Shown here piece after piece: positions 128-16,227 of a stretch of 16,543 nucleotides of DNA. The stretch is from positions 1-16,543 of the forward strand of contig WNEB01000012.1 of assembly GCA_009914575.1 (NCBI GenBank), read 5' to 3'. Source of the stretch: Burkholderia gladioli (GTDB lineage: Bacteria > Pseudomonadota > Gammaproteobacteria > Burkholderiales > Burkholderiaceae). The notes beneath the pieces are model-generated. The model did not search any database and was not told where the DNA came from. It saw only the letters and a list, made by a program, of their open reading frames with translations. Both the position numbers and the translations under genes were made by a program. How positions within the stretch are numbered: the first letter of the stretch is position 1; each line of letters begins with the position of its first letter.

Positions 128-210
128 ACAGCCTTTCCAACTTCACCGATATCCGTTCGCTTCAGCCCGATCCGGCACAGCCGTCACGAAAACGACGCCT
201 GTGCGGGGCA

Positions 211-238
211 GCTTATCCACCGCACTCTGTGGATAAGC
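211..238. promoter_or_regulatory. Palindromic pair of DnaA boxes
   Basis: GCTTATCCAC at 211-220 and GTGGATAAGC at 229-238 are perfect 10-base inverted repeats around an 8-base spacer. Each arm contains a DnaA-box core. The two boxes face each other, as in paired DnaA sites that nucleate or titrate the initiator. Confidence 0.65.
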
Positions 239-408
239 ACGTAGATTCCCCGTGAGTTCTCTGTGTAACCACAGTGGACGTAACCGGGGTAACTTGAGGT
301 CGCCGCACAGCACAGCAAAAGTTGTTCTGTGAATCGCTGTGCGAGCGCACAGGCTGTGCGGGGGTTTATGAGTTCGGCAAGCCCATGAATTTGTGAGGTT
401 TACCGGGG

Positions 409-453
409 TTATCCACAGAAAATCGATGCTTTGTTAACTTCTACTACGTATAC
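409..453 (+). promoter_or_regulatory. Perfect DnaA box followed by TAC/TTC triplets (possible DnaA-trio)
   Basis: TTATCCACA at 409-417 is a consensus DnaA box. After an 18-base spacer come AAC TTC TAC TAC GTA TAC (436-453). In the Bacillus subtilis origin, DnaA-trio triplets follow the last DnaA box on the same strand and mark where the duplex opens. The order box, then triplets, then AT-rich DNA is the same here, but the spacer looks longer, so the trio call is an inference. Confidence 0.5.
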
Positions 454-480
454 ATACAGGTAAACCTGTGGTTATAAATC

Positions 481-2055: not shown

Positions 2056-3228
<1,173 letters not shown>

Positions 3229-3590: not shown

Positions 3591-3619
3591 CCTCGAGCCG
3601 CGCGAACGGCCGCGCCGGC

Positions 3620-4107
3620 TTATTGCAGCAGCGAGCGCAGCATCCAGGCGGTCTTTTCGTGGATCTGCATGCGTTGCGTCAGCAGATCGGCGGTCGGCTC
3701 GTCGCTGGCCGAAGCGGCATCGGGGAAGATCTCGCGCGCGGTGCGCGTGACGGCTTCGTGCCCTTCCACGAGCTGGCGGATCATGTCTTACGCGACCGGC
3801 ACGCCCGACGCTTCCGGCACCACCGTCAGCTTCGCGAAATCGCCGTAGGTGCCCGGCGCGACCACGCCCAGCGTGCGGATCCGTTCGGCCACGGCATCCA
3901 CCGCGAGCCAGAGTTCGTTGTACTGGTCCTCGAACATCAGGTGCAGCGTGTTGAACATCGGGCCGGTCACGTTCCAGTGGAAGTAGTGCGTCTTCAGGTA
4001 CAGCGAGAACGTATCGGCCAGCAGCCGCGACAGGCCGTCCGCAATCTTCTTGCGGTCCTTGTCGCCGATGCCGATGTTGATCTGCGTTGCATTGCTTTTT
4101 TGGCCAT
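3620..4107 (-). pseudogene. dps: Dps ferritin-like DNA-binding protein, inactivated by a frameshift and a nonsense codon
   Basis: Dps forms 12-subunit shells that bind DNA, consume hydrogen peroxide and store iron. Start ATG at 4107 has AAGGAG 9 bases upstream. With two corrections the sequence encodes a full 162-residue Dps: [13 protein letters not shown]..., [29 protein letters not shown], then [20 protein letters not shown] and [13 protein letters not shown]. Lesion 1: a run of six A residues (4096-4101) where seven are needed, a -1 shift at codon 4-5. Lesion 2: an in-frame TAA at 3788-3790 where a lysine codon is expected ([17 protein letters not shown]). Iron-site residues (His in FHW and TLH, Asp and Glu in VDAVAE) are otherwise retained, so decay is recent. 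The single-base loss could be a homopolymer sequencing error, but the nonsense change is a separate substitution. The original terminator and promoter region remain. Confidence 0.9.
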
Positions 4108-4251
4108 GTTGCTGACTCCTTGTCGATGAGTTGAACCGGCTTGAACCGCCTCGGGACCGCCCGCTCGTGCTGCCTGAACCGGGCGACCCAAGCGCGGCCC
4201 AGTGTAGCCTAGAACGCTTGACGGGGACGGATAAGGCCGTCGGCGCCGCGC

Positions 4252-11518: not shown

Positions 11519-13561
11519 ATGAATCGTTACCCAATCTGGAAATATGTCGTGATGGTCGTCGCGCTCGCGATCGGCCTTCTGTACACATTGCCCAACTTCT
11601 ACGGCGAAGCGCCGGCGGTGCAGGTGTCGAGCGGCAAGGCCACGGTCAAGATCGACTCGGGCACGCTCGCCGACGTGCAGACCGCGCTCACGGGCGCGCA
11701 GATCGCGCCGGACGACATCACGTTCGACAATTCGGCGAACAACGCGAACATCCGCGTGCGCCTGAAGGACACCGACACCCCGCTTCGCGTCAAGGATCTC
11801 TTGCAGAAGGCGCTCAACAGCGACCAGAGCGATCCGCAATACGTCATCGCCCTGAACCTGCAAAGCGCCTCGCCGCGCTGGCTGACCGCCCTGCACGCGC
11901 TGCCGATGTATCTCGGCCTCGACCTGCGCGGCGGCGTGCACTTCCTGTTGCAGGTCGACATGAACGGCGCGCTGACCAAGAAGCTCGATTCCGACGCCAC
12001 CGACGCGCGCACGCAACTGCGCGACAAGGGCATCCGCGACGGCGGCGTGAACCGCGTCGACCTGTCGGTGGTGGCGAACTTCGCCGACCAGGACACGGCC
12101 GAACAGGCCCGCCGCTATCTCGCGGGCGCGATCACCGAACTGCAATGGGCCACCCAGCCGGGCGGCGGCTACCAGGTGGTCGGCACGTTCGCACCGGCCG
12201 TGCAGGCCGCGGTGGAAGACGCCGCGCTCAAGCAGAACCTGACCACGCTCCACAACCGCGTCAACGAACTCGGCGTGTCGGAGCCGATCCTGCAGCAGCA
12301 AGGCAAGGACCGCATCGTGGTCGAGCTGCCGGGCGTGCAGGACACCGCGAAGGCGAAGGACATCATCGGCCGCACGGCTACGCTCGAAGCGCGCCTCGCC
12401 GATCCGGTCAATCTCCATCCGAACCCGACCGACCCGGTGCCGCCGGGCGACGAGCTGTTCACGCAAGGCGCGCAGGCGCCGGTGCTGCTGCGCAAGCAGG
12501 TGACCTTCACCGGCGACCGCATCATCGACGCGTCGGTCGGCTTCGACGATCACCAGCGCCCGTCCGTCAACATCCGCCTCGATGCGCCCGGCGGCCGCGC
12601 GGTGCGCGACGTGTCGCGCGAGAACATCGGCAAGCCGATGGCGATGGTGCTGTTCGAGAAGGGCAAGGGCGAGGTGCTGACGGTCGCGACGATCCAGTCC
12701 GAACTCGGCGACCGCTTCCAGATCACCGGCCAGCCCACGCCGCAGGCCGCCACCGACCTCGCGCTGCTGCTGCGCGCCGGTTCGCTGGCCGCGCCGATGG
12801 ACATCATCGAGGAACGCACGATCGGCCCGAGCCTCGGCGCCGACAACATCCGCATGGGTGTGCATTCGGTCGTGTGGGGCTTCGTCGCGATCGCCGTGTT
12901 CATGGTGCTGTACTACATGCTGTTCGGCGTGGTGTCGGTGATCGGCCTGTCGGTGAACCTGCTGCTGCTGGTGGCCGCGCTGTCGATGATGCAGGCCACG
13001 CTGACGCTGCCGGGTATCGCCGCCATCGCGCTCGCGCTCGGCATGGCGATCGACTCGAACGTGCTGATCAACGAGCGGATCCGCGAGGAACTGCGCAGCG
13101 GCGCCGCGCCGCAGGTGGCGATCCAGCAGGGCTACGCGCACGCCTGGGCCACCATTCTCGATTCGAACGTGACCACGCTGATCGCCGGTCTGGCGCTGCT
13201 CGCGTTCGGCTCGGGCCCGGTCCGCGCGTTCGCGATCGTGCACTGTATCGGCATCCTGACCTCGATGTTCTCGGCCGTGTTCTTCTCGCGCGGCCTCGTG
13301 AACCTCTGGTACGGCGGCCGCAAGAAGCTCAAGTCGGTGGCGATCGGCCAGGTCTGGAAGGCGCCGGCAGCCGAGGCAGCCGGCCTGCCGATCCTCGAGC
13401 AGGACGCCGGCACCGACACGGCCAGGGGCGCCGCCGGTTCGTCGGCCAAGGCCTCGAAGCAAGGCGCCAAGCAGGGTGCTGCGCGCGGCAATGCCAAGCC
13501 GGTGGCGCGTCGCCGCTCCGGCCCCGGCGTGCCGCCGAAGACGCCCGGCTCCTCCAACTAA
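11519..13561 (+). CDS. secD: SecD, protein-export membrane subunit
   Basis: SecD, with SecF, uses the proton gradient to pull translocating proteins into the periplasm. The product has 680 residues. It has one N-terminal span (about 9-27), a large periplasmic domain containing LGLDLRGGVHFLLQVD (from residue 132) and later GPSLGADNI (about 437-445), then five spans (about 450-590) including GMAIDSNVLINERIREEL, the conserved transmembrane-4 region with its Asp. E. coli SecD has 615 residues; the extra length is mainly a C-terminal Ala/Gly/Lys-rich tail of about 80 residues (SSAKASKQGAKQGAARG), probably a disordered cytosolic tail. No strong Shine-Dalgarno is seen before the ATG. SecF follows after 16 bp. 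Intact. Confidence 0.96.
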   Translation: MNRYPIWKYVVMVVALAIGLLYTLPNFYGEAPAVQVSSGKATVKIDSGTLADVQTALTGAQIAPDDITFDNSANNANIRVRLKDTDTPLRVKDLLQKALNSDQSDPQYVIALNLQSASPRWLTALHALPMYLGLDLRGGVHFLLQVDMNGALTKKLDSDATDARTQLRDKGIRDGGVNRVDLSVVANFADQDTAEQARRYLAGAITELQWATQPGGGYQVVGTFAPAVQAAVEDAALKQNLTTLHNRVNELGVSEPILQQQGKDRIVVELPGVQDTAKAKDIIGRTATLEARLADPVNLHPNPTDPVPPGDELFTQGAQAPVLLRKQVTFTGDRIIDASVGFDDHQRPSVNIRLDAPGGRAVRDVSRENIGKPMAMVLFEKGKGEVLTVATIQSELGDRFQITGQPTPQAATDLALLLRAGSLAAPMDIIEERTIGPSLGADNIRMGVHSVVWGFVAIAVFMVLYYMLFGVVSVIGLSVNLLLLVAALSMMQATLTLPGIAAIALALGMAIDSNVLINERIREELRSGAAPQVAIQQGYAHAWATILDSNVTTLIAGLALLAFGSGPVRAFAIVHCIGILTSMFSAVFFSRGLVNLWYGGRKKLKSVAIGQVWKAPAAEAAGLPILEQDAGTDTARGAAGSSAKASKQGAKQGAARGNAKPVARRRSGPGVPPKTPGSSN

Positions 13562-13577
13562 GCGCCGGAGAACGTAC

Positions 13578-14528
13578 ATGGAATTTTTCCGCATCCGTAA
13601 AGACATCCCGTTCATGCGGCACGCGTTGACCTTCAACGTGATCTCGCTCGTGACGTTCCTGGCCGCCGTGTTCTTCCTCGTGCATCGCGGCCTGCACCTG
13701 TCGGTGGAGTTCACCGGCGGCACGGTGCTCGAAGTGCAGTACCAGCAGGCCGCCGAACTCGAGCCGGTGCGCGCCACGCTCGGCAAGCTCGGTTACGGCG
13801 ACGCGCAGGTGCAGAGCTTCGGCACCTCGCGCAACGTCCTGATCCGCCTCGCGCTGAAGTCGGGCCTGACCTCGGCCCAGCAGATCGACCAGGTAATGGC
13901 GGGCCTGAAGGCGCAGAACCCCGACGTGCAGTTGCAGCGCGTGGAGTTCGTCGGCCCGCAGGTCGGCAAGGAACTCGCCACCGACGGCCTGCTCGCGCTG
14001 GCCTGCGTGGTGATCGGCATCGTGATCTACCTGTCGTTCCGCTTCGAGTGGAAATACGCGGTGGCCGGCATCATCGCCAACCTGCACGACGTGGTGATCA
14101 TTCTCGGCTTCTTCGCGTTCTTCCAGTGGGAGTTCTCGCTGTCGGTGCTGGCCGCCGTGCTCGCGGTGCTCGGCTACTCGGTCAACGAATCGGTCGTGAT
14201 TTTCGACCGGATCCGCGAGACGTTCCGCCGCGAACGCAAGATGAGCGTGCAGGAAGTGATCAACCACGCCATCACCAGCACGATGTCGCGCACGATCATC
14301 ACCCACACGTCGACCGAAATGATGGTGCTGTCGATGTTCTTCTTCGGTGGCCCGACGCTGCATTACTTCGCGCTGGCGCTGACGGTCGGCATCATGTTCG
14401 GCATCTATTCGTCGGTGTTCGTGGCCGGCTCGCTGGCGATGTGGCTCGGCATCCGCCGCGAGGATCTGATCCGCGACAAGAAGGGCGCGCACGATCCGAA
14501 CGACCCGAACGCGGGCGCGCAGGTCTGA
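13578..14528 (+). CDS. secF: SecF, protein-export membrane subunit
   Basis: SecF pairs with SecD in the inner membrane. GGAGAACGTAC directly precedes the ATG at 13578, only 16 bases after the secD stop, so the two are co-translated. The 316-residue product has one N-terminal span, the periplasmic motif VEFTGGTVLEVQY (about residues 45-57), and five further spans that include VLGYSVNESVVIFDRIRE, the conserved transmembrane-4 segment, and FGGPTLHYFALALTVG. The C-terminus is a short polar tail (RDKKGAHDPNDPNAG). The usual bacterial length is 300-325 residues. A strong terminator lies 13 bases downstream. Confidence 0.97.
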   Translation: MEFFRIRKDIPFMRHALTFNVISLVTFLAAVFFLVHRGLHLSVEFTGGTVLEVQYQQAAELEPVRATLGKLGYGDAQVQSFGTSRNVLIRLALKSGLTSAQQIDQVMAGLKAQNPDVQLQRVEFVGPQVGKELATDGLLALACVVIGIVIYLSFRFEWKYAVAGIIANLHDVVIILGFFAFFQWEFSLSVLAAVLAVLGYSVNESVVIFDRIRETFRRERKMSVQEVINHAITSTMSRTIITHTSTEMMVLSMFFFGGPTLHYFALALTVGIMFGIYSSVFVAGSLAMWLGIRREDLIRDKKGAHDPNDPNAGAQV

Positions 14529-14599: not shown

Positions 14600-16227
14600 T
14601 CAGGCGTCCGCCCTCGCCTGCTCCCAGTCGAGGCCGAAGCGCGCCAGATACTTGCGCAGGCGATCCGCGTCGTTCGGCTGCTTCTTCTGCGCGCGCGACA
14701 CGGCGAACAGCGTGCGCCCGGCATCCGACAAGCTCGCCGCGCGGCGGCACACGTGCAGAGCCCCTGCTCGAGCTGCGCGCGATCGAACAGATCGAGTTCG
14801 GTCGCCCGCTCGCCGAGCACCGTATCGACGAGCGCGCCGCCCGGCGCGGCGCCGCGCGGCTGCCACGCCTTTCGCAGCCGGTCGGTTTCCTCGGCCGCCA
14901 CGACCTCGGTGATGCGGCCCGCGTCGGCCAGCGTGGCCATGCGCGTGACCGACGCCGACAGCTCGCGGAAATTGCCGCGCCACGCCGCCTCCGACGACGC
15001 CGCGAACGCCAGATAGCGGCGCTTCGCCTCGACGTTGAAGCGCACCTGCTCGCCGTGCTCGCGGCCGAAGCGTTCGAGTTCGAAATCGAGGTTCGGTTCG
15101 ATGTCCTCGCGCCGCTCGGCCAGGCCCGGCAGCGTATAGGCCCAGAGGTTGATCCGCGCGTGGAGATCCTCGCGAAACATACCCGCCTCGACCTCGACCA
15201 TCCGACCGAGGTCGCGATGCGTGCCGGCGATCAGCTGGAAATCGCTGGCGACTTCCGTGTCGGCGCCCACCGGCAGGAACCGCTTCTCCTCGATCGCCTT
15301 CAGCAGCATCGCCTGCTCGTCGAGGCCGAGTTCGCCGATTTCGTCGAGAAACAGCAGGCCGCGATCGGCGGCGCGCAGCAGCCCCGCGCGCGCCGCCTGC
15401 GCGCCGGTGAACGCGCCCTTCACATGGCCGAACAGCGTGGACATCGCCGCGTCGCCGCGCAACGTGGCGCAGTTAACCTCGACGAACGCGCCGTCGCGCG
15501 CATGCCGCCCGCGCTTCAGTTCGTAGATGCGCCGCACCAGGAACGACTTGCCGGCGCCGGTCGGCCCAACCAGCAGCATCGGCTCGCGCGATTTCACGGC
15601 CACCCGTTCGAGCTGTGCGATCAGCGCGTTGAACGCCGGGTTGCGCGTGGCGATGCCGGCCTTCAGGAACGAGACCGTTTCGTCGCGTTCGCGCGAAAAA
15701 CGCTGCGCAATGCGGTTGTAGCGCGACAGGTCGAGATCGATCACCGACACGACGCCGTATTCCGACAGCGGAATCGCGTCGTCGTCGGTCGCGCCGAGCG
15801 GCGACGGGCTGGTCTGCACGAGCCGCGCCGGCAGATAGCGCGCCTCGGCCAGCAGGAACCAGCAGATCTGCACGACGTGCGTGCCGGTGGTGATGTGGAC
15901 CAAGTAATCCTCGTGGTCGGGATCGAACGGATAGTGCCGCGCGAAATCGTGCAGCGTCGCGTAGACCTCCTCGAAATCCCAGGGATCGCGCAGGCTCATC
16001 GGCGTGAGGCGGACTTCGGTGCGCGGCGAGATGGCGGCGATCTCGCTGCGGATATGCCGGGACAGCCGCTCGAAACCGGGCGGATGCAGCAGTTCGAGCC
16101 GGTCGAGCGGCATGCCGGGCTGCGCGCACAGCGAAATGGTGGGACGCCACTTGTGCGTTAGCCGGCGTTTGCCGCTGCCCGCATCGAGCACGGTGCCGAG
16201 GAAGCCGATCGCGACGGAACGTTTCAT
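14600..16227 (-). pseudogene. rtcR: RtcR, sigma-54-dependent activator of RNA-repair genes, frameshifted before its helix-turn-helix
   Basis: RtcR senses damaged-RNA signals through an N-terminal CARF-like domain and drives sigma-54 transcription of rtcBA (RNA ligase and cyclase). Start ATG at 16227 (MKRSVAIGFLGTVLDAG). The sensor domain spans about 1-190. The AAA+ domain has Walker A GPTGAGKS (221-228), the sigma-54 contact loop GAFTGA (271-276) and Walker B LLFLDEIGE (291-299). After FDRAQLEQ (about residue 488) the frame breaks at four G residues (minus strand, 14764-14761). The family C-terminus continues in another frame: ALHVCRRAASLSDAGRTLF, then NDADRLRKYLARFGLDWE, ending at 14600. The change fits two extra G residues (CAG-GCT becoming CAG-GGG-CT) or one lost base. 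The repaired protein is 541 aa, close to E. coli RtcR (532). Unrepaired, the frame runs on to 14392 with a 120-residue unrelated tail and no DNA-binding helix. A homopolymer sequencing error cannot be excluded. Confidence 0.85.

Follow-up and report, generated by a model that had tools for sequence, protein, structure and literature searches.

A DnaA-box module upstream of a kef antiporter gene is very likely the primary-chromosome origin of a Burkholderia species and belongs to a family of homologous modules

Bacteria are generally taken to have one origin of replication per chromosome, and in a bipartite oriC of the Helicobacter pylori type two box clusters flank dnaA and are accompanied by one unwinding element. 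Described cases with more than one cluster or element include Bacillus subtilis and H. pylori, with bipartite origins, and Pseudomonas aeruginosa, with two elements capable of autonomous replication (PMC4403523). Within Burkholderia, replication was shown to start in the chromosome-1 origin region of B. cenocepacia J2315, and the available part of that report leaves the exact origin uncertain (PMC4948915). More recently, candidate origin stretches of B. pseudomallei chromosome I were described as bound by a purified DnaA fusion (PMC12914326, 2026). Here, we analyzed a stretch of DNA of 16,543 nucleotides (the window) together with related genomes, and found that positions 205-482 on its forward strand very likely represent oriC of the primary chromosome of a Burkholderia species. 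This block is a module that belongs to a family of homologous modules within the same genomes.

The block contains an 8-of-9 DnaA box at 213-221 on the forward strand (TTATCCACC), a perfect box at 228-236 on the reverse strand (TTATCCACA) and a second perfect box of the same sequence at 409-417 on the forward strand, which lies close to the conserved core. The first two belong to a perfect inverted pair (211-238) with 10-bp arms at 211-220 and 229-238, as the initial annotation had reported. The whole window held four DnaA boxes with at most one mismatch against 0.68 expected, a number that none of 200 shuffles reached, and none of 2000 simulated windows of the same first-order composition had three boxes whose start positions spanned 205 bp or less. 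Thus, the two perfect boxes and the 8-of-9 box that had been noticed are indeed present within 205 bp, and they form a cluster beyond chance. The core, with the family signature TTGTTAACTTCTACTACGTATACATAC, occupies 431-457 on the forward strand, and a predicted unwinding element overlaps it at 434-464 (40th lowest in stability among the 16512 30-bp stretches in the window). The box-to-core spacer (418-430) measures 13 bp, one base less than the 14 bp of all other main copies (103), which reflects either a lost base or a sequencing error; in no other module does a perfect box stand 13 bp from the core. Eighteen bases past the end of the box at 417, the triplets AAC TTC TAC TAC run from 436, which confirms the TAC/TTC run described before. 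In the published register, candidate DnaA-trios read CTT CTA CTA at 438-446 on the forward strand (3'-GAA GAT GAT-5' on the other strand), and the gap from the box at 409-417 becomes 20 bases, beyond the 16-bp limit (PMC8287927, from the rules in the available part of that paper). GC content was 54% at positions 1-500 and 55% at 251-750, compared with 58-74% in the remaining 500-base steps. The first recognized gene starts at 841, with a longer mechanical open reading frame from 535, so that no listed gene lies inside the block; the description of a gene-free, AT-richer block therefore stands. No match to 205-482 was found in the plasmid and phage collections, which gives no support to a module carried by such elements, and no known RNA family reached its gathering score in the window.

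Several features are shared with the systems mentioned above. The J2315 region, from the same genus, also has more than one DnaA-box cluster, one of which is near the skew minimum; however, the available account does not describe these clusters as homologous modules, and the likeness is one of description (PMC4948915). The B. pseudomallei candidate was likewise chosen near the skew switch and has two perfect DnaA boxes in opposite orientation, whereas its account, in the part available, mentions no copies, and it was compared by description (PMC12914326). The basal unwinding system of B. subtilis and other bacteria, as far as its rules are accessible, has the same order of a box, CTA-type trinucleotides on one strand and AT-rich DNA, but the 20-bp gap to the first trio seen here contrasts with a maximum of 16 and a peak of 10-13 there (PMC8287927). 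B. subtilis, H. pylori and P. aeruginosa each have at least two DnaA-box clusters or origin-like elements on one chromosome according to the available text (PMC4403523), whereas the modules described here are homologous and each has its own boxes and core. Unlike in the H. pylori-type oriC, each module has a core of its own, and kef and ybdK, not dnaA, lie between the mirror pair that many relatives possess. Homologous origin modules in Burkholderia were described in no title or displayed abstract of the openly accessible papers that were surveyed.

To the left of the block, positions 1-128 correspond to one end of an IS256-family insertion sequence, truncated where the window begins, with 74-80% identity to nine plasmid records, six of which have an IS256 annotation under the match. 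The initial annotation had placed an insertion-sequence end at 127, and this is supported both by the resemblance of 1-128 to IS256-family ends and by the similarity to the nearest relative, which begins at 141. The element stops approximately 85 bp before the first DnaA box, within what is the mnmC-oriC spacer of the nearest relative. Because the window begins inside the element, the displacement of the usual left neighbor that the initial annotation proposed is no more than a possibility. In the nearest named relative, Burkholderia sp. Ac-20379, the left neighbor of the block is mnmC, which encodes a bifunctional MnmC (NCBIfam NF002480, 654.6 bits, cut-off 540) and ends approximately 120 bp before the first box. 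On the right, the antiporter gene kef (Na_H_Exchanger, CPA2-like; the NCBIfam CPA2 match was below cut-off) lies at 841-2055 on the forward strand, and its product is 98% identical to that of the same relative. It is followed by a ybdK-type carboxylate-amine ligase gene at 2113-3228 on the forward strand. Although a mirror copy of the module comes after ybdK in many relatives, none was present in the window at up to six mismatches; the genes right of the ligase encode a LysR regulator, RecG, QueA, Tgt, YajC, SecD and an RtcR-type regulator. Two further observations concern the window. Positions 520-640, between the block and kef, showed patchy conservation (mean 0.88 per site at 541-560) and no Rfam match, and positions 3599-4120 resembled plasmid genes annotated as Dps family protein (72-76%).

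An antiporter search yielded 148 loci, of which 80, from Burkholderia, Paraburkholderia and Trinickia, were kept. All 80 kept loci had at least two DnaA boxes in the 1.5 kb that precede the antiporter, which upholds the proposal that the block is conserved in related genomes, and the core was found upstream of the antiporter in 79 of them at up to four mismatches (the exception being L058). A second box cluster that aligned with the block was found in MS389, Paraburkholderia xenovorans LB400 and B. anthina. When two mismatches were allowed, the core pattern was present in all 65 Burkholderia genomes, with at least two copies in 63 (two copies in 60 genomes, three in two and four in one) and no second copy in the other two, and the reversed pattern gave no match in the same 65 genomes. 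At three mismatches, 174 of 299 genomes of the family matched. Copy numbers varied among genera: the 38 genomes of genus g20 had one, two, three or four copies in 1, 11, 19 and 7 cases, respectively; the 40 genomes of g10 had none, one, two or three in 3, 5, 21 and 11 cases; and all 11 genomes of g25 had two. A single copy was the general state in g11 (30 of 32 genomes, with none in one genome and two in another, whose second match was without boxes) and was found in five of the eight g8 genomes, the other three having none. Genera g3 and g24 had no core match at this threshold and g12 had a single one, and the reversed pattern at three mismatches matched three genomes, all of g12. Outside the family, only one of 146 genomes matched the box-plus-core pattern, at the three-mismatch limit.

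We examined GC skew in relatives in place of the window's own replicon, using five genomes in which 400 kb around the site are joined. The cumulative GC-skew minimum was located 2.6 kb from the main core in MS389, 0.6 kb in LB400, 2.6 kb in B. anthina, 2.6 kb in genome G042 and 2.2 kb in genome G065; it thus sits off the block, 0.6-2.6 kb toward the antiporter side. The skew switch that was expected at the block was therefore found close to it in all five. The 5-95% interval of a change-point bootstrap included the main core in all five genomes and left out the distant sister in the four genomes whose sister is 41-49 kb away, and the mirror sister of LB400, at a distance of 3.2 kb, was inside the interval as well. 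A simple V fit was looser, with its vertex 0.6, 2.4, 10, 5 and 6 kb from the core in the same order of genomes. On a larger scale, MS389 skew was positive in 12 of 12 samples at 300-1820 kb and negative in 8 of 8 samples at 1900-3200 kb. An oriC usually, but not by definition, lies beside dnaA, and here dnaA was approximately 84 kb (MS389), 49 kb (LB400) and 70 kb (B. anthina) from the block. Two perfect parS sites lay on the kef side, 26-31 kb off, in all five genomes, and the same flank carried mnmG and parB in MS389, LB400 and B. anthina. We call the block oriC because it is conserved and near the skew switch, with parS, mnmG and parB on the kef side. The earlier assignment as an oriC is thus well supported by conservation and by the skew minimum in relatives. 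An origin beside dnaA was considered separately and set aside, since dnaA is 49-84 kb distant from the skew minimum and no box cluster was found beside it.

Using the core pattern, we collected 202 distinct modules across all loci. Per-site conservation was 0.92-0.95 for the core in every class, a level that is partly built in by the search itself, compared with 0.60-0.77 in the 14-bp spacer. The proximal DnaA box lies outside the search pattern, and in 196 of the 202 modules a box with at most one mismatch preceded the core by exactly 14 bp, as against 4 of 30300 other upstream positions. This box was perfect at the 14-bp spacing in 99 of 104 main copies (100 if the window is counted), and in 19 of 94 sisters (9 of 55 on the ybdK side, 7 of 29 in the relocated Burkholderia class and 3 of 10 among the remainder), although 91 of the 94 sisters had a box with no more than one mismatch in precisely this position. 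The variant box TTATCCACT was itself conserved among relocated Burkholderia copies (21 of 29). On the ybdK side, perfect boxes were found in all four g11 modules, which represent one lineage and are not independent, compared with 5 of 51 elsewhere; no other module with boxes was found in the genomes of these four. The distance of an inverted pair from the core, which lies downstream of it, was approximately 218 bp in main copies and approximately 207 bp in most others, so that the two distances differ by about one helical turn. The predicted least stable stretch within 1.45 kb lay in the core in 96% of the 104 main copies, 95% of the 55 ybdK-side copies, 100% of the 29 relocated Burkholderia copies and 50% of the 10 others. 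Two modules, L239 (without boxes) and L223 (cut by a contig end), were left out of the class counts, and the two tandem copies of L232 were counted apart from the classes; like L239 and L223, they are inside the 'other' group in some counts. These tandem modules of L232 (genome G105) are 435 bp apart near the main site and both have perfect proximal boxes.

The modules fall into classes by location. Main copies lie between mnmC and kef, whereas ybdK-side copies are directly downstream of ybdK in the opposite orientation, approximately 3 kb from the main copy, and were found in 40 of the 80 kept loci. At least two copies shared one contig in 50 of the 63 multi-copy Burkholderia genomes, and the nearest distance between them was 41-67 kb in 42 genomes, 32-35 kb in three and 2.85 kb in five. 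The farthest same-contig copy in g20 was approximately 294 kb away, and in the nearest relative of the window the sister lies 16.5 kb from dnaA on a different contig. In the two g11 genomes examined (G130 and G186), the only box cluster in 13-16 kb was downstream of ybdK, and in a g8 genome (G115) the only module was at the mnmC-kef site; thus, a module at either place can be the sole one found in a genome. In G130, skew was -0.054, -0.048 and -0.075 left of the module and -0.004 just right of it, followed by +0.062 and +0.021; two sites 3 kb apart are indistinguishable by skew. A tree of 84 of the 202 modules (chosen rows plus random fill) placed 31 of 35 main-site rows in one clade (98/92), which was joined (92/82) by g8 modules (main site, two rows) and g11 modules (ybdK side, four rows). 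The remaining two main-site rows, L233 and L245, were placed elsewhere and the main label required four changes; because of this and a long-branch warning, we used the tree as a hint only. The idea that the relocated Burkholderia copy (75 kb in MS389) is a moved ybdK-side copy was unsupported, as the tree grouped them apart, and relocated copies were therefore treated as a separate class. The relocated sister was within approximately 0.5 kb of tRNA-Val(gac) in four loci (L097 at 15376-15452, L163 at 14350-14426, and also L267 and L268). In L097, four DnaA boxes in the same orientation were seen in approximately 330 bp at 13365-13692 (MS389 73.4-73.7 kb), 1.3 kb from the sister.

In the mechanism that we propose, DnaA would bind the inverted box pair (213-236) and the consensus box (409-417), from the latter it would open the AT-rich core (431-464), and bidirectional initiation would start at the block. 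The main copy, with its consensus proximal box, would be the usual origin, and the sisters, whose proximal box is mostly one base off, would be secondary or backup origins or would adjust DnaA availability. Taken jointly, it is highly probable that 205-482 is oriC, that the main copy is the usual origin and that the others are weaker, origin-like sisters.

Three other explanations of the block were weighed against this reading. E. coli has DnaA control sites, datA and DARS, and sites of this kind alter the nucleotide state of DnaA or titrate it without initiating replication. The block might be one of them, with replication actually starting at another locus, perhaps next to dnaA. Both the small number of DnaA boxes, which include an inverted pair, and the several copies per genome would be in keeping with this, and a perfect DnaA box adjoins dnaA in MS389, LB400 and B. 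anthina. However, the skew minimum lies within 2.6 kb of the block with dnaA 49-84 kb off, no three-box cluster was found within 500 bp at dnaA in the three genomes scanned, and the conserved AT-rich core beside a box would be needless for a titration site, which makes this explanation improbable. It is even less probable that a sister is the true origin and the mnmC-kef block an accessory to it. Sisters do share the boxes and the core, and the ybdK-side module is the only one in both g11 genomes examined, but in the four genomes with a sister 41-49 kb away, the main copy was 2.2-2.6 kb and the sister 43-51 kb distant from the skew minimum, and the better proximal box is that of the main copy (100 of 104 versus 19 of 94). 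That the boxes are a chance cluster or part of the antiporter promoter is hardly credible, even though the core ends 383 bp upstream of the antiporter start: such a cluster was reached in 0 of 2000 simulated windows, the same module recurs behind ybdK and in places with different neighbors, and the reversed pattern had no match in 65 genomes. A chance cluster was accordingly rejected, as box count and spacing were beyond both shuffles and simulations.

With the block read as oriC, the role of the sisters is a matter of greater doubt. A serious rival reading is that they are plain leftovers, decaying after duplications of the origin and without a present role, which we consider quite possible although short of probable. 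Their proximal box is usually one base off, recognizable distal boxes have been lost in the sisters of the window's nearest relative and of genome G021 (L264 and L265), and several genera have one copy or none, all of which would agree with decay. Against this, at least two copies are kept in 63 of 65 Burkholderia genomes, 91 of 94 sisters still have, at that precise position, a box within one mismatch, and the variant box TTATCCACT has been conserved in 21 of 29 relocated Burkholderia copies. In the four genomes with a sister at 41-49 kb, the slope between modules was 7.6-10.9 per kb compared with 19.2-25.5 outside, with a sign that fits the main copy; occasional sister firing or an old rearrangement would both produce such flattening, and all four genomes have the same arrangement. 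Of the three modules in LB400 (the main copy, the ybdK-side copy and one at +21.9 kb), the last showed no skew switch. A more elaborate model, which we regard as rather unlikely, is a multi-module origin in Burkholderia and sister genera that comprises a strong mnmC-kef oriC and one to three homologous modules within approximately 0.3 Mb, one class being mirrored across kef-ybdK. The sisters would then open separately, tuned down by one base of the proximal box, and would provide secondary or backup initiation or helicase loading at the opposite fork.

The 27-bp signature TTGTTAACTTCTACTACGTATACATAC can be used to find the origin in these genera, and our results narrow down the origin that the published B. 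cenocepacia work, in its available part, had left uncertain (PMC4948915). If the extra copies prove active, the rule of one start point for bacterial chromosomes would be broken, and a genus-wide set of homologous modules graded by one DnaA box offers a natural system for testing the one-origin rule.
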